Below the pieces are notes generated by a model that was given only the letters and a program-made list of their open reading frames with translations, was not told where the DNA came from and searched no databases. Of a stretch of DNA of 64,000 bases, positions 996 through 14,409 are shown one piece after another. Source of the stretch: Nitrospira sp. MA-1 (lineage in GTDB: Bacteria > Nitrospirota > Nitrospiria > Nitrospirales > UBA8639); contig JAQJDB010000006.1 in the NCBI GenBank assembly GCA_032139905.1, forward strand, positions 682,001 to 746,000. Reading direction: 5' to 3'. Made by a program: the position numbers and the translations under genes. The first letter of the stretch is position 1, and each line of letters opens with the position of its first letter.

Positions 996-2603
996 GCTGA
1001 GAAGTTCCTAGCCGAAAAATGTATGGAGATGGTTAGGGGTATTTCAGAGGCAGTAATCCATCATTTCTTTAGCTGATCGGCAATTCCCCACATTTTTCCG
1101 AGCCGTACGCTGAAAAGTGATGTGTGACCTCATCCGGGTATATGGTAAGTGAGCCTTGCTTACTCCACATTTGGGAGCGCGCAAAGAGTCCATCGCTTTA
1201 GGAGGTCAGTAGTTCTATAGATCACGGGCGTCAGGACGTAAGCAGGGTCCGGGCTATCGGAAAGGACGGTGACCGTTTGTTGAAAACCAACGGTAGGAGA
1301 GGAGCGTACCCTGTCCAGCCATCCATTTGAGCGGGGGGCTGGGTTTAACCCCACTTTCTAAATGAAGTGGAAAATGTGGTCCAGACACATGGGAGATATG
1401 GAGTAGTGAGATTCTTTCGAGGATCCCTGTTCTTTCATCTTTGCCGCAATGGCCGCGGAAGCTTTAATGATTGTGTGTCATTTCGGCACACGAGCTTTCC
1501 ACCCCAACACAGCTTTCATTGACCTCCACAGGACCAACCAGTCGGTCTCTTTCAGGACGCCCCCTTTTTCATGGGAGTTCGTGGAGCCATGGCTAAAAGG
1601 TAAAGTAACTGGCCAAGCCAAGGACTCGTTGCAATCGACGAGCTTTCGCGCTGTATTTCTGACTCGTCAAATTCCAGATGGTGCACAGTCGAAAGTGCTT
1701 CTGGATTCCCTCAAATATTATTCCCCCAATCGCACCTGTTTCCCACAGAGTTGGCGCGACCTTTTATGGGGGAAGAAACCAAATAAATCCTCCAAGGTGG
1801 GCGAATAGACGCTCAATTTAGCCCAAATTGCTGTCGGGACTCCCGGGCCATAAAGTTATTATGAATTCCCCATAATTGGAATTAGGAGTAGAAAAGACCG
1901 TCATCCAGAAATATTCAACGGAAAGATTTAGAAATGATTTGAAATTCTTTAAATAGTTAAAGAATTAATCATCTGACTCGGAATACCAGGTAAAGAGGAT
2001 TTCCTCATCGTCGGAAAATTTGTCTAAGTCAGAAATATATTGTCTCACCTGTTGGAAGTTGTTCCTTGTTTTTTAGCCCTGGAACGATTGGGTACCCTAT
2101 TCTGTCAAAGATTTTTTCGACTTTAGAAAAACATCTGGCTTCCTATCTACTAGATTCGAACACTGATTTCACAAAACATACTCGGATCGAAGGAATCTAG
2201 AGAAATAATCGTGGAGATGACAAAGGTGGCAGAAGTTTTGCTGTACTAAGCCGGAAGAAAGATATTCATCATTTTCTATCAAATAACCAGTATGGACTTA
2301 TGGAAAACTGAGACTTGTTCCGGGATTATCAGGCAGGAAAAATAACTCAATTTCTGTAGAAATACAAAGGAGGTGGTACCAGGTAGAACACTTGAAAAGA
2401 ACTGCGAATTCGGATGGTTTGAAAATTTATCCCCACTTTCAATCCGTTTGAGAGGGAAACAGCCAATTCAGCATGCGGTCATATTCATATTTTATAGGTG
2501 TGTTAACCATTGCCCGGGAAAGATTTTTTGTGGAGATTTATTGAAAGGATAGGCTTCCATGAAAGATTTGGTCTTATTCCTGGAAAAAAGGAAAGGCGGA
2601 TTT
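996..2603. other. intergenic stretch, no convincing gene
   Basis: About 1.6 kb separates the ligase-type gene from the next secreted protein. A 119-codon open frame (1449-1808, +) shows no recognisable motif and no good ribosome site. Bases 1108-1340 are GC-rich and hairpin-prone but could not be assigned to an RNA family. A sigma54-type element is at 2227-2242. Otherwise I see nothing. Confidence 0.5.
2227..2242 (+). promoter_or_regulatory. candidate sigma54 (-24/-12) promoter
   Basis: TGGCAGAAGTTTTGCT has the GG-N10-GC spacing of sigma54 promoters and matches the consensus TGGCACG-N4-TTGCT at TGGCA and TTGCT. It lies about 360 bp upstream of the secreted FG-GAP protein at 2604, on the same strand. 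A second, better match stands upstream of the gene at 5394. Function is inferred from the motif only. Confidence 0.4.
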
Positions 2604-4247
2604 ATGAAAAGGAATACATGTCGGTCTTCAGGGTGGGTAGCGGGTTCACTAGCGACTGCTATGTTGGTTATGGGGACGGCGTCTATGGCCGCTGCGGCGG
2701 GTTTTACCGCATATAACGATTTGGCCTGGGGTACCGGTCAGCTCGAAACGAATATCACGAAGTACACCTCGCCAGATGGCGGTTCTGGCTTGCCCAGTAC
2801 CGGCTTACTTAAAGATTTTGCCACTGGTGTCGATACCGGCGTCACCCTAGCCGTTACGGGGGGCTCATATCTCGGTGCTCCCCAGGCCACTCAAGGGGCA
2901 GATCCAACCACAGGAGATGCCTTTATGATCTTTGATGGCAAGGTCAGCGGCCAGGGCGCGCTTTCCTATGTCGATGCTGTTGGCAGTTCCCTCGTGTTGA
3001 CCTTTAGCGGGCTCAATCCAAACAGGACGTACGATTTGGCCTATTTCGCTCATCGAAATGCGAACGGGTGGGATCGGGCTTCCCTTGTGACCATTTCCGG
3101 AACGGCTGGGCGAACGAATACGAGTTCGGTGGCAACTGATAATCCCAGTGAGCCTGGGGGTGTGATTTTCTCTGGTCCTGGGGATAGCTCAACTCGGTTA
3201 CCGGCCGACAATGACAATGGCTATGTGGCGCGGTGGAGTGAGGTGAGTCCCGGCAGCGATGGTATCGTGGTGCTGACTATTAGTTTTGATGGAAGTGCGG
3301 GTGAGCAATACAAGGGAAAGTATGGCAGTGCAGTCCGATTGATTGAGTCATCTGGTTCTGTTGGCCATGATTTGGATGGGGATGGCAAAGCCGACCTTGT
3401 CTGGCGACATACAAATGGTAATGCTGCGGTATGGTTGCTGAATGGGACAGCGGTTCCCTCCTCCATGGGCTCTCTAGGAGGCGTGAGCTCTGCATGGCAG
3501 GTTGCGGGAGTGGGTGATACGGATGCTGATGGCAAGGCGGATATCATTTGGCGCAATACCACGAGCGGCGCAGTGGCTGTATGGCTGATGAACGGGGTGA
3601 CCATGACTTCCGCTGGTTTTCCCGGCACAGCATCCACGGCCTGGCAAATTCAGGGAGTGGGGGATCTAAATGGTGACGGCAAAGCCGACCTTGTTTGGCG
3701 ACACACGAATGGGAGTGCTGCGGTATGGTTGCTGAATGGGACAGCGGCTCCTTCCTCCATGGGCTCATTGGGTGTGGTGAGTTCGGCGTATCAAATTTCG
3801 GGAGTTGGTGATACGGATGCCGATGGTAAGGCGGATATCATTTGGCGCAATACCACGAGCGGCCTTGTGGCCGTGTGGCTGATGGATGGGGTGACCATGA
3901 CTTCCGCTGGCTTCCCCGGCACTGCGTCGACAGTTTGGTCCATCCAGGGAGTCGGGGACCTGAACGGTGATGACAAGGCCGACCTTGTCTGGCGGCACAC
4001 GAATGGAAGTGCTGCGGTATGGTTGCTGAATGGGACAGCGGCTCCCTCCTCCACCGGCTCATTAGGTGTGGTGAGCTCTGCCTGGGAAATTAGACAGGTG
4101 GGTGATACCGATGCCGATGGCAACGCGGATATCATCTGGCGAAATACCACGAGTGGGGCAGTGTCTGTGTGGCTGATGAACGGGACGACTCTGACCTCCG
4201 CTGGTTTCCCCGGCAGCGCATCGACCTCCTGGGAAATTCAACCTTAG
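2604..4247 (+). CDS. secreted protein: beta-rich N-terminal domain plus six FG-GAP/VCBS-type repeats
   Basis: A predicted exported 547-residue protein. I chose ATG 2604 because a purine-rich ribosome site (aaaggaaaggcgga) precedes it and a clean signal peptide follows (about residues 1-32, ending ASMAAAA). An ATG at 2559 in the same frame would add 15 residues. Residues ~33-255 form a domain beginning GFTAYNDLAWGTGQLETN, also present once in the 1423-residue protein encoded at 9101-13372. Residues ~258-547 are six ~49-residue units with D-x-(D/N)-x-D-G loops (DLNGDGKADLVW), typical calcium-binding FG-GAP/VCBS beta-propeller blades. Two unit types (RHTNG and RNTTSG) alternate, giving a 98-residue higher-order period. 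The gene stops exactly at the end of a blade (TSWEIQP). The substrate is unknown. A surface adhesion or binding role is inferred. No PEP-CTERM or LPXTG sorting tail is seen. Confidence 0.85.
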   Translation: MKRNTCRSSGWVAGSLATAMLVMGTASMAAAAGFTAYNDLAWGTGQLETNITKYTSPDGGSGLPSTGLLKDFATGVDTGVTLAVTGGSYLGAPQATQGADPTTGDAFMIFDGKVSGQGALSYVDAVGSSLVLTFSGLNPNRTYDLAYFAHRNANGWDRASLVTISGTAGRTNTSSVATDNPSEPGGVIFSGPGDSSTRLPADNDNGYVARWSEVSPGSDGIVVLTISFDGSAGEQYKGKYGSAVRLIESSGSVGHDLDGDGKADLVWRHTNGNAAVWLLNGTAVPSSMGSLGGVSSAWQVAGVGDTDADGKADIIWRNTTSGAVAVWLMNGVTMTSAGFPGTASTAWQIQGVGDLNGDGKADLVWRHTNGSAAVWLLNGTAAPSSMGSLGVVSSAYQISGVGDTDADGKADIIWRNTTSGLVAVWLMDGVTMTSAGFPGTASTVWSIQGVGDLNGDDKADLVWRHTNGSAAVWLLNGTAAPSSTGSLGVVSSAWEIRQVGDTDADGNADIIWRNTTSGAVSVWLMNGTTLTSAGFPGSASTSWEIQP

Positions 4248-5128: not shown

Positions 5129-5144
5129 GGGCACGAGATATGCT
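5129..5144 (+). promoter_or_regulatory. candidate sigma54 (-24/-12) promoter
   Basis: GGGCACGAGATATGCT matches the consensus TGGCACG-N4-TTGCT at all but two conserved positions and has the GG-N10-GC spacing. It is 250 bp upstream of the phosphatase/FG-GAP gene on the same strand. Sigma54 promoters need an enhancer-binding activator, and none is encoded in this window. Confidence 0.5.
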
Positions 5145-5393: not shown

Positions 5394-7670
5394 ATGAAGA
5401 AAATTGGTGTGGTGAGTTTTGGCTGTGCGCTATTTTTACTGGTGGCCTCTGTGGCGCCAGCGACCGCTGCTGTGGTGCGGCAACCCTATCTACAACTCGT
5501 CACTCCCACCTCCGTTACGGTGGTGTGGCGCACGGACCTGAATTCAGCAGACAATAGCCAAGTGAAATATGGCACAGTGGCCGGCTCTCTGAGCCAAACG
5601 GCGACCGGTACGGCGGTCACACGCTCAGGACTCAACGTCAAGGATCACATTGTTACGATTACCGGGCTAACCGCTGCCACCAAATATTTCTATAACGTCG
5701 GCACCGTGACGAACGGTGTGCAAGTTACCGGCACTACTCAGCACTTTTTTGTCACGGCGCCCCCCGTCGGGTCGGCCACACCCGTTCGGGCGTGGGTGCT
5801 GGGGGATTCGGGCGACGCCAGTAACAACCAAAGGAATGTGCGGGATACGATGCTGACTGAGACCGCGCTGAATCCGCCAGCTCCCAACTTGATCTTGCAC
5901 ATGGGGGACATTGCGTATCAAAGCGGCACCGACGCACAATTTACCAACAACCATTTTAAGATTTACGAAGATATTCTCCGCCAGACACCTCTTTGGCCGA
6001 CGCTGGGTAATCATGAGGTTCCGAACAGCTCCAGTTCCCTGGGCATTGGGCCTTACTACGAAGCCCATGTCCTGCCGAGCAGCGGCCAAGCGGGAGGGGT
6101 GGCCTCCGGCACCGAAGCCTACTATGCCTTTGATTACGCCAATGTGCATTTCATTGTGCTCGACTCCATGGACAGTAGTCGGGCTCCGGGCTCGCCGATG
6201 TTGACCTGGTTACAGAATGATCTGGCTGCCACCGGGCAAGAGTGGGTGATCGCCTTCTGGCATCATCCGCCTTATTCGAAAGGCCACGACTCGGACAATG
6301 CCGCCGACTCCGGTGGACGATTGGTCAATATGCGGGAGACGGTGCTACCCATTCTGGAGGCCGGCGGAGTGGATTTGGTCCTTGCGGGGCATTCTCATGC
6401 CTATGAGCGGTCTTACCTCCTGGATGGCGCCTACGGCTATGGCACCTCACCTAACTTTGCTACACCGTCCTTCAATACCCTATTGGCCGATGGCCATATT
6501 CTGGATGCGGGCAATGGCCAGCCCTCGGGCACCGGAGCGTATCAGAAAAGTGCCGGAGGTGTGTCGCACGAGGGAACCGTGTATGTCGTGGCCGGCCATG
6601 GGGGGCATGATCTTGATTCCACCCATCCCGTGCATCCGGTCATGGCGGTGTTTGATGTGGCCTATGGCTCGGTGCTCCTCGACATCACGGGCAGCAGCCT
6701 CACCCTCCGAAATCTGCGGGCAGGAGGCGCTATCACCGACACCATGAGCATTATCAAAAATTCCACTTATCCACCTGGTCCAATTGCTTCGACTGACTTT
6801 AATAAGGACGGAAAATCCGATATTGTTTGGCGGAATACCAGTACTGGGGCCTCGGCCATTTGGCTCATGAACGGTGTTAATATCGCCTCTAACGGGTTTC
6901 CAGGCGTGGTGTCTTTAGCATGGCAGATCGCTGGAGGCGGCGATGTTAATGGAGACGGGAAGTCGGACTTTGTCTGGCGAAATACGAGCAGTGGTGCAGT
7001 GTCGGTGTGGTTCATGAATGGATCAACCGTCACGTCGACGGGTTTTTTACCCGGGGCCCCTTTAGTGTGGCAGATTGCGGGCGTGGGAGATCTCAATGGC
7101 GATGGGAGGGCTGACCTCATCTGGCGAAATACTAGCAGTGGCGCAGTGGCGGTGTGGACTATGAATGGGACGACTGTAACCTCGACAGGATTTCCAGGTA
7201 GTGTCTCGTTGGATTGGGTGATCCGGCAAGTAGGCGATCTCAATGGCGATGGGAAAGCCGACCTCGTCTGGCGTAAAAACAGCACAGGGGCTGTGGCTGT
7301 GTGGCTAATGAATGGGGCAACTATTACGTCGACGGGTTTTCCGTCAGGTGGATCCTTAGCGTGGCAGATTGCAGGAGTGGGAGATTTGAATGGGAATGGC
7401 ACGGACGACATTGTTTGGCGCCATGCGAGCTCAGGTGCGGTAGCTGTGTGGTTTATGAATGGGGCGACCATCGCATCGACAGGCTTTCCGGGGAGTGTTT
7501 CGTTAAATTGGGTGAATCGGCAGGTGGGCGATCTCAATGGTGATGGGAAGGCCGACCTCGTCTGGCATAATACAGTTAGTGGTACAGTAGCGATATGGTT
7601 AATGAATGGGGCGGCCATAACCTCAACAGGCTATCCCGCTACTACGTCCCTAGATTGGCAAATTCAATAG
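5394..7670 (+). CDS. secreted purple acid phosphatase-like metallophosphoesterase with FG-GAP repeat tail
   Basis: A predicted exported 758-residue protein that would hydrolyse phosphomonoesters outside the cytoplasm. The signal peptide is residues 1-26 (ending APATAA). Residues ~27-125 are a fibronectin-like PAP N-terminal domain. Residues ~130-455 are the metallophosphoesterase core, with all five PAP metal motifs in order: GDSG (137), GDIAY (171), GNHE (205), HH (290-291) and GHSHAYER (332). Residues ~467-758 are six ~48-residue FG-GAP units with D-x-N-x-DG loops, again with a 98-residue (294-bp) two-unit period, ending flush at LDWQIQ. ATG 5394 is preceded by taggga. Bases 5421-6746 are nearly identical, in inverted orientation, to 11999-13324, so the catalytic domain is shared and only the tail differs. 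Phosphate acquisition is inferred; the real substrate is unknown. Confidence 0.88.
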   Translation: MKKIGVVSFGCALFLLVASVAPATAAVVRQPYLQLVTPTSVTVVWRTDLNSADNSQVKYGTVAGSLSQTATGTAVTRSGLNVKDHIVTITGLTAATKYFYNVGTVTNGVQVTGTTQHFFVTAPPVGSATPVRAWVLGDSGDASNNQRNVRDTMLTETALNPPAPNLILHMGDIAYQSGTDAQFTNNHFKIYEDILRQTPLWPTLGNHEVPNSSSSLGIGPYYEAHVLPSSGQAGGVASGTEAYYAFDYANVHFIVLDSMDSSRAPGSPMLTWLQNDLAATGQEWVIAFWHHPPYSKGHDSDNAADSGGRLVNMRETVLPILEAGGVDLVLAGHSHAYERSYLLDGAYGYGTSPNFATPSFNTLLADGHILDAGNGQPSGTGAYQKSAGGVSHEGTVYVVAGHGGHDLDSTHPVHPVMAVFDVAYGSVLLDITGSSLTLRNLRAGGAITDTMSIIKNSTYPPGPIASTDFNKDGKSDIVWRNTSTGASAIWLMNGVNIASNGFPGVVSLAWQIAGGGDVNGDGKSDFVWRNTSSGAVSVWFMNGSTVTSTGFLPGAPLVWQIAGVGDLNGDGRADLIWRNTSSGAVAVWTMNGTTVTSTGFPGSVSLDWVIRQVGDLNGDGKADLVWRKNSTGAVAVWLMNGATITSTGFPSGGSLAWQIAGVGDLNGNGTDDIVWRHASSGAVAVWFMNGATIASTGFPGSVSLNWVNRQVGDLNGDGKADLVWHNTVSGTVAIWLMNGAAITSTGYPATTSLDWQIQ
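5421..6746 (+). repeat. inverted repeat, left arm (1326 bp)
   Basis: Nearly identical to the reverse complement of 11999-13324, with equal arm length, so no net indel. Coordinates map as x to 18745-x. Only scattered substitutions were seen by eye, for instance near the signal peptide and at the third-to-last codon. The arm covers the end of the signal peptide and the whole phosphatase domain, and starts and ends in coding phase with the host gene. Confidence 0.9.
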
Positions 7671-9100
7671 TCGGAGAATTAAGGGTTTTTTTGTATTCGA
7701 AAGCTTCCTTTTTTGCAGAAGCGAAGCTCCTTCCCTAACTTTGAACAAAGCGGATACGAAGGCGGCAAGAATGATATTGGCAATATGGTCGTAATTAAAT
7801 TCTACATTCAAGCTGTACGAACATTTCTTGTTGTTTTCAATGAGCAGCGTGTAAAATCCTCATGGTTTGTTTTACCGATTAACGGAAGATGTCTACACCT
7901 GATTTGTTACCCACCGTTCACTCCTAGACAAAATATAGACCCTGATTGAAGCTCGGCGTTATCAACAAATGATCGTCTTGGTTTCCCATTTTGACGGAGT
8001 ATCTGGCGTCCGAGAGAGGTGTTAACAATAAACTCTTTGAAAAATCCTGAGCGACGCCCATGGTTGTTTTACGCCAATTTCGTCGTCGAAGGGCTTTGCG
8101 GGTTTGATTCCTCCATGGTCTTCATGACCTGAGCATTATCTGCAAAGCCATTCATACGGTTAAATTGCTTCTCGCAGTACAGCAACACTGGCCCCAGTCA
8201 ATGCTGGAGCCTCGCGCTGCCTCGGGTGCATTTGATTTTTCGCTCGTTTTGGCGAACCAGTGGAAACATGGTCGCAGGGTTGGTCGACATCAGTGTCTTG
8301 TGCAGTTGTGCCAGAACCTTCACATGATGAAACGTCGACATTCTTTGAAGGCTTCCAGAACCGAATTCGCCGTCAATCACATGATTTTCGATGGAACCTT
8401 CCCAAAGCCCTTGGCCATCTTCTGGTCGCTCAAGTCCATGTCCAGTGAGATGAGGCTTAGCGGCCCGGATGGGGCGGGCCGAAGAGGATCGTAAAAGCCA
8501 TGAATGCCATAAGGGACCGCTCTTGGAATACCTTTAGGTCCTGGGCCGTCAGCGTCACCATTTTCTTGAGGCGGGTTAGGGCGAGAAATGAAAAGCTTGC
8601 GTCGTTGCCTTAAATATGATCATTTCGTATTGGTCACGTCGCGGAGCCGTGGGTGCGTCATCTTGACCTTTTGGTCGTCCATGGAAGATCGCCCCATTCT
8701 CGAGCACCCAATTCGGGAAAGCTCGGTCGGTAGGAGGTCCCGTCAATTTTTCTGGCTCGATCAACATGCCGCTATCCGTGAACATCCAGCCCATATCCAT
8801 CATCACTGCGTTAAGCGTTTACTTGCCCGCTAGAGCACGCGGGTTGCTAGATCCCTCGAGAGCCTTTAGTGGCCTTTTTGCATCGCCTCCTGTCTGTTCT
8901 CATCAGTGGCTCCTTTCGTTCCCGTCGGGAGTATTTCACTGACTGAGGAACCACTCGTCCCAAATACAACTGACTTTAAAGAAAACCATCACAAGAGATG
9001 GGGATATGCTTTCACTTGGATGATTGCGGAGTGGGATCAGCAGACCCAGTGATGGCCCCATTCTTTGGTATTACGTTGTAAGGCTTGGAAAAAGGCCCGT
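7671..9100. other. intergenic region with possible decayed minus-strand gene
   Basis: About 1.4 kb between convergent genes. Minus-strand frames at 8576-8806 and 8198-8380, with a connecting stretch around 8460-8560 (GIPRAVPYGIHGF), look like pieces of one broken reading frame, but I could not assign a family. Plus-strand frames at 8165-8494 and 8588-8833 lie opposite and are probably shadows. No terminator was seen between the convergent genes. Confidence 0.35.
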
Positions 9101-12100
9101 TTACAGAGGAGGACTCTGGGGTTGAACGATGACGGAATACATGCTGAATCCTCCTCCGCTCGCATTGCCCCCGAGGGTAATGGTCCCGGCGGGGAAGGAC
9201 CGCACAAACAGGCTAAAGGTCGCATCCGAGGTCACCAGATTCGCGCCGGTATCCGAAAAGGTGCTCAACCATGAGGGTTTCGAAGTAATACGATCTCCAT
9301 GGGCGACATAGACCGATACTGGTTGATTGACCGTGAAACTAAGGAAGTCGGCATTCGTCGCGGCTTTATCATTGTTGGCGGTTCGGATATAGGTGGCGCC
9401 CTGCACACTGGAGGGGACGGTAGTAAAGGTATAGGCACGGTCGATATAGACGGTGCCGCCGGCTTGGAGGCCTGAGGCGGGCACCACATATGTTTGCCCA
9501 CTGGCGACGGTCAGATTCGAGAGGGTTAATGATGAGGGTGGAGGTGTGCTAGATACTGTTACTTGAATGGTTGCGGGGGTAGGATCGGCTAGCCCAAGGG
9601 CATCCGTCACCGTATAGGTCACGGTGAATACGCCGGCGGTATTAAAGGTGACGGAGCCGGGGTCCTCCACGGTGCGATCGGCCAGGCCCGAGCCCGAGCC
9701 AAAGGTCCACCGATGGGTGAATGGCGTATTGTTGTCTGGATCCGTGCCGGTGCCGGTAAAGGTGAGGGCTTGGCCTACCAGGATGCTCTGTGCCCCACTC
9801 GGCGTGTTGATGACCCCATTGGGGGCTTGATTGACAGGTCCTCCGCCACTCTGGGGTTGAACGATGACGGAATACATGCTGAATCCTCCTCCGCTCGCAT
9901 TGCCCCCGAGGGTAATGGTCCCGGCGGGGAAGGACCGCACAAACAGGCTAAAGGTCGCATCCGAGGTCACCAGATTCGCGCCGGTATCCGAAAAGGTGCT
10001 CAACCATGAGGGTTTCGAAGTAATACGATCTCCATGGGCGACATAGACCGATACTGGTTGATTGACCGTGAAACTAAGGAAGTCGGCATTCGTCGCGGCT
10101 TTATCATTGTTGGCGGTTCGGATATAGGTGGCGCCCTGCACACTGGAGGGGACGGTAGTAAAGGTATAGGCACGGTCGATATAGACGGTGCCGCCGGCTT
10201 GGAGGCCTGAGGCGGGCACCACATATGTTTGCCCACTGGCGACGGTCAGATTCGAGAGGGTTAATGATGAGGGTGGAGGTGTGCTAGATACTGTTACTTG
10301 AATGGTTGCGGGGGTAGGATCGGCTAGCCCAAGGGCATCCGTCACCGTATAGGTCACGGTGAATACGCCGGCGGTATTAAAGGTGACGGAGCCGGGGTCC
10401 TCCACGGTGCGATCGGCCAGGCCCGAGCCCGAGCCAAAGGTCCACCGATGGGTGAATGGCGTATTGTTGTCTGGATCCGTGCCGGTGCCGGTAAAGGTGA
10501 GGGCCTGGCCTACCAGGATGCTCTGCGCCCCACTCGGCGTGTTGATGACCCCATTGGGGGCTTGATTAACTGGTCCTCCGCCGTTACCGGACTCCATCAG
10601 CCGGATTGCACTGCCATACTTCCCTGTGTATTGGCTGGCGACGTTTCCATCAAAGCTAATGGTGAGCAGGATCTTCCCATCGCTTCCGGACTGAATGTTG
10701 CTAAATCGCGCCACATAACCCTTATCATTATCTGCTGGTAGCCGAGTCGAGGTATCTGACGACCCGGAGAAGATTACCCCGCCGACCTCACTGGGATTAT
10801 CGGTGGCGGCGGAACTCGCATTGATAAATGCGTCCTGTCCGGAAAGAGTTACGAGGGAGGCCCGATCCCAACCGTAAAAGTCTCGATGGGCAAAGAAGGC
10901 CAAATCGTAGGTCTTGCTCGGATTGAGCCCATTGAAGGTCAATAGGAGCGAGTTAGTGTCTTGATTGACATAGGAAATGACGCCAAGGGTACTGACTTTT
11001 CCATTAAAGATGGTGAAGGCGTCTCCCATGGTCGGGTTTGCGCCCTGAGTGGCTTGGCCACTACCGATAAACTCGCCGCCAGTGACCGTCAGGGTCACTC
11101 CGGTATCGAGGCCGGTGGTGAAATCTTTGAGCATGCCACTGCTGGGTAAGCCTGAGCCTCCGACGGGAGAGGTGAACTTCGTGATATTCGTTTCGAGTTG
11201 CCCTGATCCCCAGGCTAGGTCATTGTAAGCAGTAAAGCCTGTGCCTTGTGGCTGGACTGTTACTTGAATGGTCGCAGGGGTGGGATCGGCTAGCCCAAGG
11301 GCATCCGTCACCGTATAGGTTACGGTGAATACGCCAGCGGTATTAAAGGTGCCGGAGCCGGGGTCCTCCACGGTGCGATCGGCCAGGCCCGAGCCCGAGC
11401 CAAAGGTCCACCGATGGGTGAATGGCGTATTGTTGTCTGGATCCGTGCCGGTGCCGGTAAAGGTGAGGGCTTGGCCCACCTGGATGCTCTGCGCCCCACT
11501 CGGCGTGTTGATGACCCCATTGGGAGCTTGATTGGCAGGTCCTCCGCCACTCTGTGGTTGAACGATGACGGAATACATGCTGCTGTTCCCACCGCTAGCA
11601 TTGCCCCCGAGGGTAATGGTGCCGGCGGGGAAGGACCGAGCAAAGAGACGGAGGGTGGTATCCGAGGTCACCAGATTCACGCCGGTATCAGTAAAAGTGC
11701 TCAACCACGTAGGTTTCGGGGTGATACGCAGGTCATGAGCGACCGATACGGAGACGGGTTGAGTGACTGTAAAGCTGAGAAAGTCAGCATTCGTCGCGGC
11801 TTTATCATTGTTGGCGGTTCGGATATAGGTGGCGCCCTGCACACTGGAGGGGACGGTAGTAAAGGTATAGGCACGGTCGATATAGACGGTGCCGCCGGCT
11901 TGGAGGCCTGAGGCGGGCACCACATATGTTTGCCCACTGGCGACGGTCAGATTCGAAAGGGTTAATGGGTTTGGTTGCGACCCACTCTTCTGAATAGCCA
12001 TGGTGTCGGTGATGGCGCCTCCTGCCCGCAGATTTCGGAGGGTGAGGCTGCTGCCCGTGATGTCGAGGAGCACCGAGCCATAGGCCACATCAAACACCGC

Positions 12101-13372
12101 CATGACCGGATGCACGGGATGGGTGGAATCAAGATCATGCCCCCCATGGCCGGCCACGACATACACGGTTCCCTCGTGCGACACACCTCCGGCACTTTTC
12201 TGATACGCTCCGGTGCCCGAGGGCTGGCCATTGCCCGCATCCAGAATATGGCCATCGGCCAATAGGGTATTGAAGGACGGTGTAGCAAAGTTAGGTGAGG
12301 TGCCATAGCCGTAGGCGCCATCCAGGAGGTAAGACCGCTCATAGGCATGAGAATGCCCCGCAAGGACCAAATCCACTCCGCCGGCCTCCAGAATGGGTAG
12401 CACCGTCTCCCGCATATTGACCAATCGTCCACCGGAGTCGGCGGCATTGTCCGAGTCGTGGCCTTTCGAATAAGGCGGATGATGCCAGAAGGCGATCACC
12501 CACTCTTGCCCGGTGGCAGCCAGATCATTCTGTAACCAGGTCAACATCGGCGAGCCCGGAGCCCGACTACTGTCCATGGAGTCGAGCACAATGAAATGCA
12601 CATTGGCGTAATCAAAGGCATAGTAGGCTTCGGTGCCGGAGGCCACCCCTCCCGCTTGGCCGCTGCTCGGCAGGACATGGGCTTCGTAGTAAGGCCCAAT
12701 GCCCAGGGAACTGGAGCTGTTCGGAACCTCATGATTACCCAGCGTCGGCCAAAGAGGTGTCTGGCGGAGAATATCTTCGTAAATCTTAAAATGGTTGTTG
12801 GTAAATTGTGCGTCGGTGCCGCTTTGATACGCAATGTCCCCCATGTGCAAGATCAAGTTGGGAGCTGGCGGATTCAGCGCGGTCTCAGTCAGCATCGTAT
12901 CCCGCACATTCCTTTGGTTGTTACTGGCGTCGCCCGAATCCCCCAGCACCCACGCCCGAACGGGTGTGGCCGACCCGACGGGGGGCGCCGTGACAAAAAA
13001 GTGCTGAGTAGTGCCGGTAACTTGCACACCGTTCGTCACGGTGCCGACGTTATAGAAATATTTGGTGGCAGCGGTTAGCCCGGTAATCGTAACAATGTGA
13101 TCCTTGACGTTGAGTCCTGAGCGTGTGACCGCCGTACCGGTCGCCGTTTGGCTCAGAGAGCCGGCCACTGTGCCATATTTCACTTGGCTATTGTCTGCCG
13201 AATTCAGGTCCGTGCGCCACACCACCGTGACGGAGGTGGGAGTGACGAGTTGTAGATAGGGTTGCCGCACCACAGCGGCGGTCGCTGGCGTCACAAAAGT
13301 CACCAGCACAAATAGCGCACAGCCCAGCGCCACCATAATCCATTGTGATTTATTTAATTTTTCCAAGTGCAC
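9101..13372 (-). CDS. secreted 1423-residue phosphatase with PKD domains and repeated beta modules
   Basis: The same PAP-like catalytic half as the gene at 5394, with a different tail. The signal peptide is residues ~1-33 (ending TPATAA) and the phosphatase domain ~34-470 has all five PAP motifs intact. Then come a ~138-residue module (TLSNLTVASGQ...YIDRAYTF...SVIVQPQ), a PKD domain (NQAPNGVINTPSGAQS...), one copy of the GFTAYNDLAWG domain also found at 2604, and two further PKD + module pairs to the C-terminus. The last two pairs are a near-perfect 735-bp tandem DNA repeat. The protein ends abruptly (QSPPL) just after the last module. The start is GTG at 13372, 32 bp after the TPR gene; ATG 13336 is an alternative but lacks a ribosome site. 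The pair is probably co-transcribed. PKD and beta modules usually bind glycans or proteins, so attachment to the cell's own polysaccharide is a reasonable guess. Confidence 0.85.
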   Translation of the reverse strand: MHLEKLNKSQWIMVALGCALFVLVTFVTPATAAVVRQPYLQLVTPTSVTVVWRTDLNSADNSQVKYGTVAGSLSQTATGTAVTRSGLNVKDHIVTITGLTAATKYFYNVGTVTNGVQVTGTTQHFFVTAPPVGSATPVRAWVLGDSGDASNNQRNVRDTMLTETALNPPAPNLILHMGDIAYQSGTDAQFTNNHFKIYEDILRQTPLWPTLGNHEVPNSSSSLGIGPYYEAHVLPSSGQAGGVASGTEAYYAFDYANVHFIVLDSMDSSRAPGSPMLTWLQNDLAATGQEWVIAFWHHPPYSKGHDSDNAADSGGRLVNMRETVLPILEAGGVDLVLAGHSHAYERSYLLDGAYGYGTSPNFATPSFNTLLADGHILDAGNGQPSGTGAYQKSAGGVSHEGTVYVVAGHGGHDLDSTHPVHPVMAVFDVAYGSVLLDITGSSLTLRNLRAGGAITDTMAIQKSGSQPNPLTLSNLTVASGQTYVVPASGLQAGGTVYIDRAYTFTTVPSSVQGATYIRTANNDKAATNADFLSFTVTQPVSVSVAHDLRITPKPTWLSTFTDTGVNLVTSDTTLRLFARSFPAGTITLGGNASGGNSSMYSVIVQPQSGGGPANQAPNGVINTPSGAQSIQVGQALTFTGTGTDPDNNTPFTHRWTFGSGSGLADRTVEDPGSGTFNTAGVFTVTYTVTDALGLADPTPATIQVTVQPQGTGFTAYNDLAWGSGQLETNITKFTSPVGGSGLPSSGMLKDFTTGLDTGVTLTVTGGEFIGSGQATQGANPTMGDAFTIFNGKVSTLGVISYVNQDTNSLLLTFNGLNPSKTYDLAFFAHRDFYGWDRASLVTLSGQDAFINASSAATDNPSEVGGVIFSGSSDTSTRLPADNDKGYVARFSNIQSGSDGKILLTISFDGNVASQYTGKYGSAIRLMESGNGGGPVNQAPNGVINTPSGAQSILVGQALTFTGTGTDPDNNTPFTHRWTFGSGSGLADRTVEDPGSVTFNTAGVFTVTYTVTDALGLADPTPATIQVTVSSTPPPSSLTLSNLTVASGQTYVVPASGLQAGGTVYIDRAYTFTTVPSSVQGATYIRTANNDKAATNADFLSFTVNQPVSVYVAHGDRITSKPSWLSTFSDTGANLVTSDATFSLFVRSFPAGTITLGGNASGGGFSMYSVIVQPQSGGGPVNQAPNGVINTPSGAQSILVGQALTFTGTGTDPDNNTPFTHRWTFGSGSGLADRTVEDPGSVTFNTAGVFTVTYTVTDALGLADPTPATIQVTVSSTPPPSSLTLSNLTVASGQTYVVPASGLQAGGTVYIDRAYTFTTVPSSVQGATYIRTANNDKAATNADFLSFTVNQPVSVYVAHGDRITSKPSWLSTFSDTGANLVTSDATFSLFVRSFPAGTITLGGNASGGGFSMYSVIVQPQSPPL
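9113..9847 (-). repeat. 735-bp tandem repeat, C-terminal copy
   Basis: Direct repeat of 9848-10582 with a 735-bp offset (245 codons, in frame). Each unit encodes one PKD domain plus one YIDRAYTF-type module. Only a handful of differences were seen, for example near 9771 and 9833. Such identity implies recent duplication or gene conversion. Confidence 0.9.
9848..10582 (-). repeat. 735-bp tandem repeat, second copy
   Basis: Partner of 9113-9847. A more diverged third occurrence of the PKD part is at ~11255-11545 and of the beta module at ~11555-11970, separated from this copy by the GFTAYNDLAWG domain. Confidence 0.9.
11999..13324 (-). repeat. inverted repeat, right arm (1326 bp)
   Basis: Reverse complement of 5421-6746. 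It encodes the phosphatase domain of the minus-strand gene in the same codon phase as the left arm does for its gene. The arms enclose 5252 bp (6747-11998). Confidence 0.9.
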
Positions 13373-13404: not shown

Positions 13405-14364
13405 TTATTGGTTCTCTAATTTTCTTAAGAGGTCATCGGCCTCGGAAAAGTGCGGAGTCTTTTGAATAGCCACACGGAGATCTTGTTTGGCTTCTTCCAT
13501 CCGACCCATCGCTTGATAAACTTCCGCGCGGGCAAGTAGTTGCATGGCAGTCTGGCGTTTTCCCAGTACACGATTGGCTTCAGCTAATGCCTGTTCATAT
13601 GCGAGGCTGGCTGCTTCCGATCGACCCATATTATCTAGGATTTCCGCCCGTTTGAGGTGCCAGGATGTCTTTACTGACGAGCCAGCTATCTCTTTGTCTA
13701 CCAAGGCTAGGGCTTCACCGTATTGTTTTTGAACCATCCGTACACGGATGAGGCCATTTTTTAGTAAGATGGCATTTCCCAGCTTGGCAAGACCATCCTT
13801 ATATCCTTCTGCCGCATCCTCAAGCTTTCCCAAAGATTCCTGGAGTTTTCCTCGAACAAGGTATAGCTCAATGGTAGGTTGCAACTGAATGGCTGACGTA
13901 AAGTCTGTAATGGCCAGTTCAGATTGACCAGTTCGTAAATAAATGCTCCCGCGTTCGGCCAAAGCAAAGACTCGTTTCGGGTCGGATTCATCCTCAAGAA
14001 AATAATCCAATGCGGTCTTAGCTTCCTTGTCACGGCCTAGGGCAGAGAGAGTCAAAGCGCGTTGTAAAGCGACAGTGCGGTTCTCGCGATTCAGCAGCCA
14101 GGCCCGTTCTAAGTCAAGCAAGGATTCGATGTATTTTCCATTGGACCGATAGACCTGCCCACGCTGGACTAGCAGATCCACATTATCTGGATCCTTGATC
14201 AATTCCTCGGTGATTTCATGAATTTCTGGATCAAGCCCAGAATGGGCAGTGGCCAGCTGGACGAGGCCAAAGCATCCGAGTGCCAGTGCCAAAGAGGCTA
14301 TTGCCAGGACGGAAGATCTGTGTCGAGATCTGACTTGCTGGTCAATTTTAATGGAAACAGACAT
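13405..14364 (-). CDS. exported or membrane-anchored TPR protein
   Basis: A 319-residue protein with an N-terminal hydrophobic segment (VLAIASLALALGCFGLVQLATA, roughly residues 20-40) followed by about seven tetratricopeptide-like helical pairs (for example RGSIYLRTGQSELAITDFTS and RAEVYQAMGRMEEAKQDLRV). TPR arrays mediate protein contacts; no catalytic motif is seen. I start it at ATG 14364, which has a good ribosome site (aaaggaaag); ATG 14409 in frame would add 15 residues. It lies 32 bp upstream of the 1423-residue phosphatase on the same strand and is probably co-transcribed. A role in assembling or presenting that protein is inference from context. Confidence 0.8.
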   Translation of the reverse strand: MSVSIKIDQQVRSRHRSSVLAIASLALALGCFGLVQLATAHSGLDPEIHEITEELIKDPDNVDLLVQRGQVYRSNGKYIESLLDLERAWLLNRENRTVALQRALTLSALGRDKEAKTALDYFLEDESDPKRVFALAERGSIYLRTGQSELAITDFTSAIQLQPTIELYLVRGKLQESLGKLEDAAEGYKDGLAKLGNAILLKNGLIRVRMVQKQYGEALALVDKEIAGSSVKTSWHLKRAEILDNMGRSEAASLAYEQALAEANRVLGKRQTAMQLLARAEVYQAMGRMEEAKQDLRVAIQKTPHFSEADDLLRKLENQ

Positions 14365-14409
14365 GAGTCTTTCCTTTTCATTATTGGGAAATAGGGGCAT
14401 CTTGCTCAT

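Follow-up and report, generated by a model that had tools for sequence, protein, structure and literature searches.

Gene Conversion and Inversion Systems of Duplicated Bacterial Genes

Duplicated bacterial genes can evolve in concert through gene conversion, as exemplified by the tuf genes. In Campylobacter fetus, the sapA genes undergo RecA-dependent inversion, and the genes are expressed one at a time from a single mobile promoter. A related arrangement is the slpA/slpB S-layer system of Lactobacillus acidophilus, for which the account in PMC7858073, citing Boot 1996, describes a chromosomal inversion that exchanges the active and the silent gene. Pneumococcal hsdS (spnIII) switching, by comparison, is RecA-independent and depends in part on a site-specific recombinase whose gene lies within the locus (PMC6620402).

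The locus described here lies in a 64,000-nucleotide stretch of Nitrospira sp. MA-1 (the window), whose genome comprises 4.76 Mb in 7 contigs (G000). Two convergent, inverted genes encode predicted secreted phosphatases with a shared catalytic half and different tails. As in gene-converted paralogues such as tuf, these ancient copies are closest within a genome, carry mosaic tracts, and cease to be homogenised where homology stops; unlike the tuf-type case, only the catalytic half is common to both, with unrelated tails behind it, and the copies lie next to each other in inverted orientation. The pair resembles sapA in having variable tails behind a conserved 5' coding region, and in an intervening segment similar in size to the one inverted in that RecA-dependent system, but each phosphatase gene has its own upstream region in place of a single mobile promoter. 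Long, near-identical, in-frame inverted arms inside coding sequence, as in slp/sap-type switches, are present at this locus. The slpA/slpB system likewise consists of two paralogues, with inversion exchanging which gene is expressed in the description given by PMC7858073; there, however, inversion is demonstrated and one gene is silent, whereas both phosphatase genes look expressible from their upstream regions. An earlier note on this DNA had likened it to hsdS switches as homologous-recombination systems. That likeness is inexact, spnIII being RecA-independent and recombinase-assisted (PMC6620402): in spnIII, inverted repeats within coding sequences also swap protein parts, but no recombinase is encoded near the phosphatase pair. 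The slpA/slpB system is the nearer analogue.

The Phosphatase Genes, Their Tails and Their Upstream Regions

The FG-type gene (5394..7670, + strand) encodes a protein of 758 aa with an FG-GAP tail, and the PKD-type gene (9101..13372, − strand) one of 1423 aa with a PKD/module-array tail, for which GTG 13372 and ATG 13336 are both possible starts. The shared half of both proteins contains PF16656 (Pur_ac_phosph_N) and PF00149 (Metallophos) above the cut-off and resembles solved purple acid phosphatases in a PDB search (6git, E 9e-20). The motif set tested for purple acid phosphatase-like metallophosphoesterases (GDxG, GDxxY, GNHE, H and GHxH) was found in full, as GDSG 137, GDIAY 171, GNHE 205, HHP 290 and GHSH 332. 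By domains, metal-binding motifs and PDB similarity, the shared half is a purple acid phosphatase-like metallophosphoesterase and thus a predicted phosphatase. The contrast of an FG-GAP tail with a PKD/beta-module tail, drawn in the earlier note, agrees with the domain search, which gave several FG-GAP matches on one side and three PKD matches with other modules on the other. FG-GAP tails like this one occur frequently in these genomes, with 29 matching stretches in the window's own.

Much of the PKD tail consists of repeated PKD/beta modules (9113..11848, − strand) built on a 735-bp tandem unit with 99.5% identity. These modules, together with those of the PKD tails at L023 and L025, are 98–99.9% identical inside any one genome, compared with about 81% for whole PKD tails between G000 and the two related genomes G001 and G002, indicating that the tail repeats have been homogenised too; their copy number may vary. 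In addition, the N-terminal module of the FG-GAP gene upstream of the FG-type gene (2700–2975) recurs inverted in the middle of the PKD tail (10964–11239) with 73% identity, pointing to module exchange among the secreted proteins of the locus. The degenerate intergenic DNA between the convergent tails (7671..9100, 1.4 kb) contains neither a recombinase nor any other recognisable Pfam domain. Its matches in G005 (75–96%) cover short translated stretches in several, broken frames, and it is possibly a decayed gene. No DNA similar to the locus was found in plasmid records, and no mention of phosphatases was found in the main text of some Nitrospira papers.

The two genes differ in what precedes them. 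Upstream of the FG-type gene lies a sigma54-like promoter, GGCACGAGATATGCT (5130..5144, + strand), a motif with 1 match in the window against 0.01 expected. It also precedes the FG-type gene in four relatives (G001, G002, G009 and G019), so that the site is kept in five genomes, at about 250 bp from the start codon in the window and about 400 bp in the relatives; RpoN is encoded in the genome. A putative sigma54 site is well supported by these observations, as the earlier note had proposed from the window itself. Farther out on the same side, a gene for an FG-GAP protein (2559..4247, + strand), which contributes the N-terminal module mentioned above, serves as an outer marker of orientation. 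The PKD-type gene directly follows a conserved partner, a TPR gene (13405..14409, − strand), again in line with the earlier description. The two phosphatase genes probably respond to different signals, so that a tail swap would matter if it occurred.

Inverted Arms

The inverted arms, 5421..6746 (+ strand) and 11999..13324 (− strand), comprise the end of the signal peptide and the catalytic domain. Each is 1326 bp long, and they differ at 10 sites (99.25% identity). This identity is uneven: 9 of the 10 mismatches fall within the first 126 bp, which encode signal peptide and the start of the mature protein and are about 93% identical. Six of the 10 change amino acids, in four signal-peptide codons, and the other four are synonymous. 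The longest mismatch-free run extends over 1184 bp (5547–6730) and is followed by a mismatch at 6731 and then 15 matching bp. Each arm keeps the reading frame of its ORF, and 5252 bp separate the two, so that a crossover would invert the segment 6747..11998, which contains both tails and the intergenic DNA. When the inversion was performed in silico between the arm midpoints, the tails were exchanged and both ORFs stayed intact, at 1416 and 765 codons. Proper alignment thus upholds what had been claimed earlier from the letters alone, namely near-identical arms of equal length in codon phase, whose recombination would join each start in frame to the other tail.

Age of the Pair and Concerted Evolution of the Catalytic Halves

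Two single-contig genomes of the same genus, G001 and G002, carry the same layout as the window, with a TPR gene followed by the PKD-type phosphatase gene facing the FG-type phosphatase gene and its upstream FG-GAP gene; in G001, the outer flank beyond the FG-GAP gene is also collinear. Tails and TPR gene are 81–86% identical in nucleotides between G000 and these genomes (third positions 60–77%), and the tails alone are 60–71% identical at third codon positions between species. Since the tails and the TPR gene are orthologous and normally diverged across the three genomes, the pair predates the species, and the recurrence of this inverted pair, with matching tails, in both relatives indicates that the duplication is old.

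A recent duplication, in which the phosphatase domain was placed before a different tail in this lineage alone, would account for nearly identical arms, and for that feature only. It was rejected as highly improbable, because the inverted layout, with the two genes and their two tails, recurs in G001 and G002, and a further relative, G020, carries the two genes separately.

The arms follow a different course from the tails. Over the mature phosphatase, the FG and PKD copies are 99.8% identical within G000, 91.8% within G001 and 89.4% within G002, whereas the G000 arms are 81–84% identical to those of G001 and G002. At third positions, the G000 mature phosphatase is 99.3% identical within the genome, compared with 61–65% to the arms of the two relatives. 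The FG arms of G001 and G002 are 85.4% identical to each other, below the identity of each to its own PKD partner. In the arm tree, the two G000 arms group together (100/100), as do the FG and PKD arms of G001 (100/99), and grouping of the PKD arms of the three genomes as orthologues is rejected (p-AU 7.6e-8). Although the duplication preceded the split of the species, the two copies in one genome thus resemble each other more closely than orthologues from different genomes do; this excess of within-genome likeness indicates concerted evolution of the arms through gene conversion.

The traces of this process are mosaic. The arms of G001 and G002 (89–92%) cluster only partly by genome, the FG arm sharing 119 states with its own PKD arm and 39 with the other genome's FG arm in G001, and 90 against 38 in G002. 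The longest shared tract was improbable by chance in G001 (31/2000 shuffles) and not significant in G002 (272/2000), which leaves a significant tract in G001 beside the 1184-bp tract of G000. Furthermore, the FG arm of G000 begins with a PKD-type string, GGCTGTGCGCTATTT, which is found on the TPR side of relatives and implies at least one copying event in the PKD-to-FG direction. The assembly of G009 is fragmented, and its FG-side and TPR-side contigs terminate in one shared 141-bp sequence, which is what collapse of near-identical arms during assembly would produce. In G005 and G010, too, short contigs stop within the arm. The outgroup G020 has its FG-type and PKD-type genes on two separate large contigs, each gene at least about 85 kb from a contig end, and the phosphatase domains of these unlinked genes are only 68% identical. 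This fits a dependence of homogenisation on linkage, as a single comparison with a genome that is also more distant.

Orientation and Competing Explanations

The TPR gene is paired with a PKD-type tail in G000, G001, G002 and G020, as well as in G043 from another genus and in a MAG labelled Desulfuromonadales (L049). On the other side, the upstream FG-GAP gene is paired with the FG tail in seven genomes (G000, G001, G002, G003, G015, G019 and G020), and the sigma54 site with that same tail in each of the four genomes in which the two can be read (G000, G001, G002 and G019). No swapped pairing was found in any relative in which upstream gene and tail share one DNA piece, and the comparison of orientation suggested by the earlier note gave the same unswapped state in G001 and G002. 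The inverted linked pair is resolved in G000, G001 and G002 only, each assembly showing at best the majority state, and the agreement of all three has a chance of 1 in 8 under free flipping. The pairing in relatives therefore speaks against inversions fixed over evolution and bears weakly on inversion inside populations. Frequent flipping is unsupported by the three resolved pairs, though tail switching by inversion is mechanically possible; judging by the conserved pairing, swapped forms may be rare or have been lost or reverted.

The explanation considered probable is an old pair of paralogues with gene-converted catalytic halves, in which one enzyme has two tails and two inputs, rather than a programmed switch. 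Ancient convergent paralogues, which encode secreted purple-acid-phosphatase-like enzymes and differ in their tails and in their upstream control, would have had their catalytic halves homogenised through ordinary homologous recombination, that is, gene conversion between the inverted arms. RecA-type recombination would be the presumable agent, nothing beyond general recombination being needed for arms of 1.3 kb, and RecA is encoded in the genome. Gene conversion and reciprocal crossover share intermediates, so homogenisation itself implies some inversion; some events may thus have been crossovers that invert the segment at low frequency, rare inversions being a by-product, with the ancestral pairing kept by selection or chance. 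The likely outcome would be one enzyme placed under two regulatory inputs and fitted with two tails predicted to bind substrates or surfaces.

An active switch, in which crossovers swap the tails between the sigma54-controlled and TPR-linked sites and produce mixed populations, appears unlikely. It draws on the nearly identical inverted arms of 1.3 kb, which share 1184 unbroken bp and lie 5.25 kb apart, on the intact in-frame swapped ORFs, on differing control on the two sides, on an inverted layout kept in three species, and on the presence of RecA. Against these stand the relatives, which lack swapped pairings and keep the sigma54 site with the FG tail wherever this is readable, and the arms of G001 and G002, whose decay to 89–92% indicates that near-identity is not strictly kept. 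A dedicated recombinase is also missing: a search of this contig for tyrosine and serine recombinases gave none closer than about 250 kb, the nearest PF00589 matches lying about 250–275 kb away and the sole PF00239 match about 255 kb away. The earlier note, which saw none inside the segment, was correct for a far larger region, and the linked recombinase that marks shufflon/hsdS site-specific systems is absent here. Improbable to the same degree is a recombinase-free tail-swapping switch of free-living Nitrospirales in which gene conversion keeps the arms recombination-competent. A single gene or misjoined pair produced by assembly is very unlikely; near-identical repeats collapse easily, apparently so in G009, but the arms differ at 10 sites, and pairing and gene order agree with two other single-contig genomes. 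For the earlier reading of switchable arms, the anatomy, the reading frames and the mechanical possibility of a swap stand, while gene conversion accounts for the identity of the arms and the relatives showed no swapped arrangement.

As gene-converted paralogues, these phosphatase genes would be a clear example from nature of bacterial concerted evolution confined to one domain, with linked inverted copies homogenised and unlinked outgroup copies far apart, and they illustrate that near-identical inverted arms alone do not imply a switch. If population reads showed both orientations, the range of recombination-based tail swapping would grow to include a secreted enzyme from an environmental bacterium.

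A family-wide search found a close relative outside the genus only in G043, where it occurs with a TPR gene and PKD-like modules. The TPR–phosphatase–PKD-like gene order (L049, L066) is seen in another genus of the family and in the MAG labelled Desulfuromonadales, suggesting that this unit is old or has been transferred.
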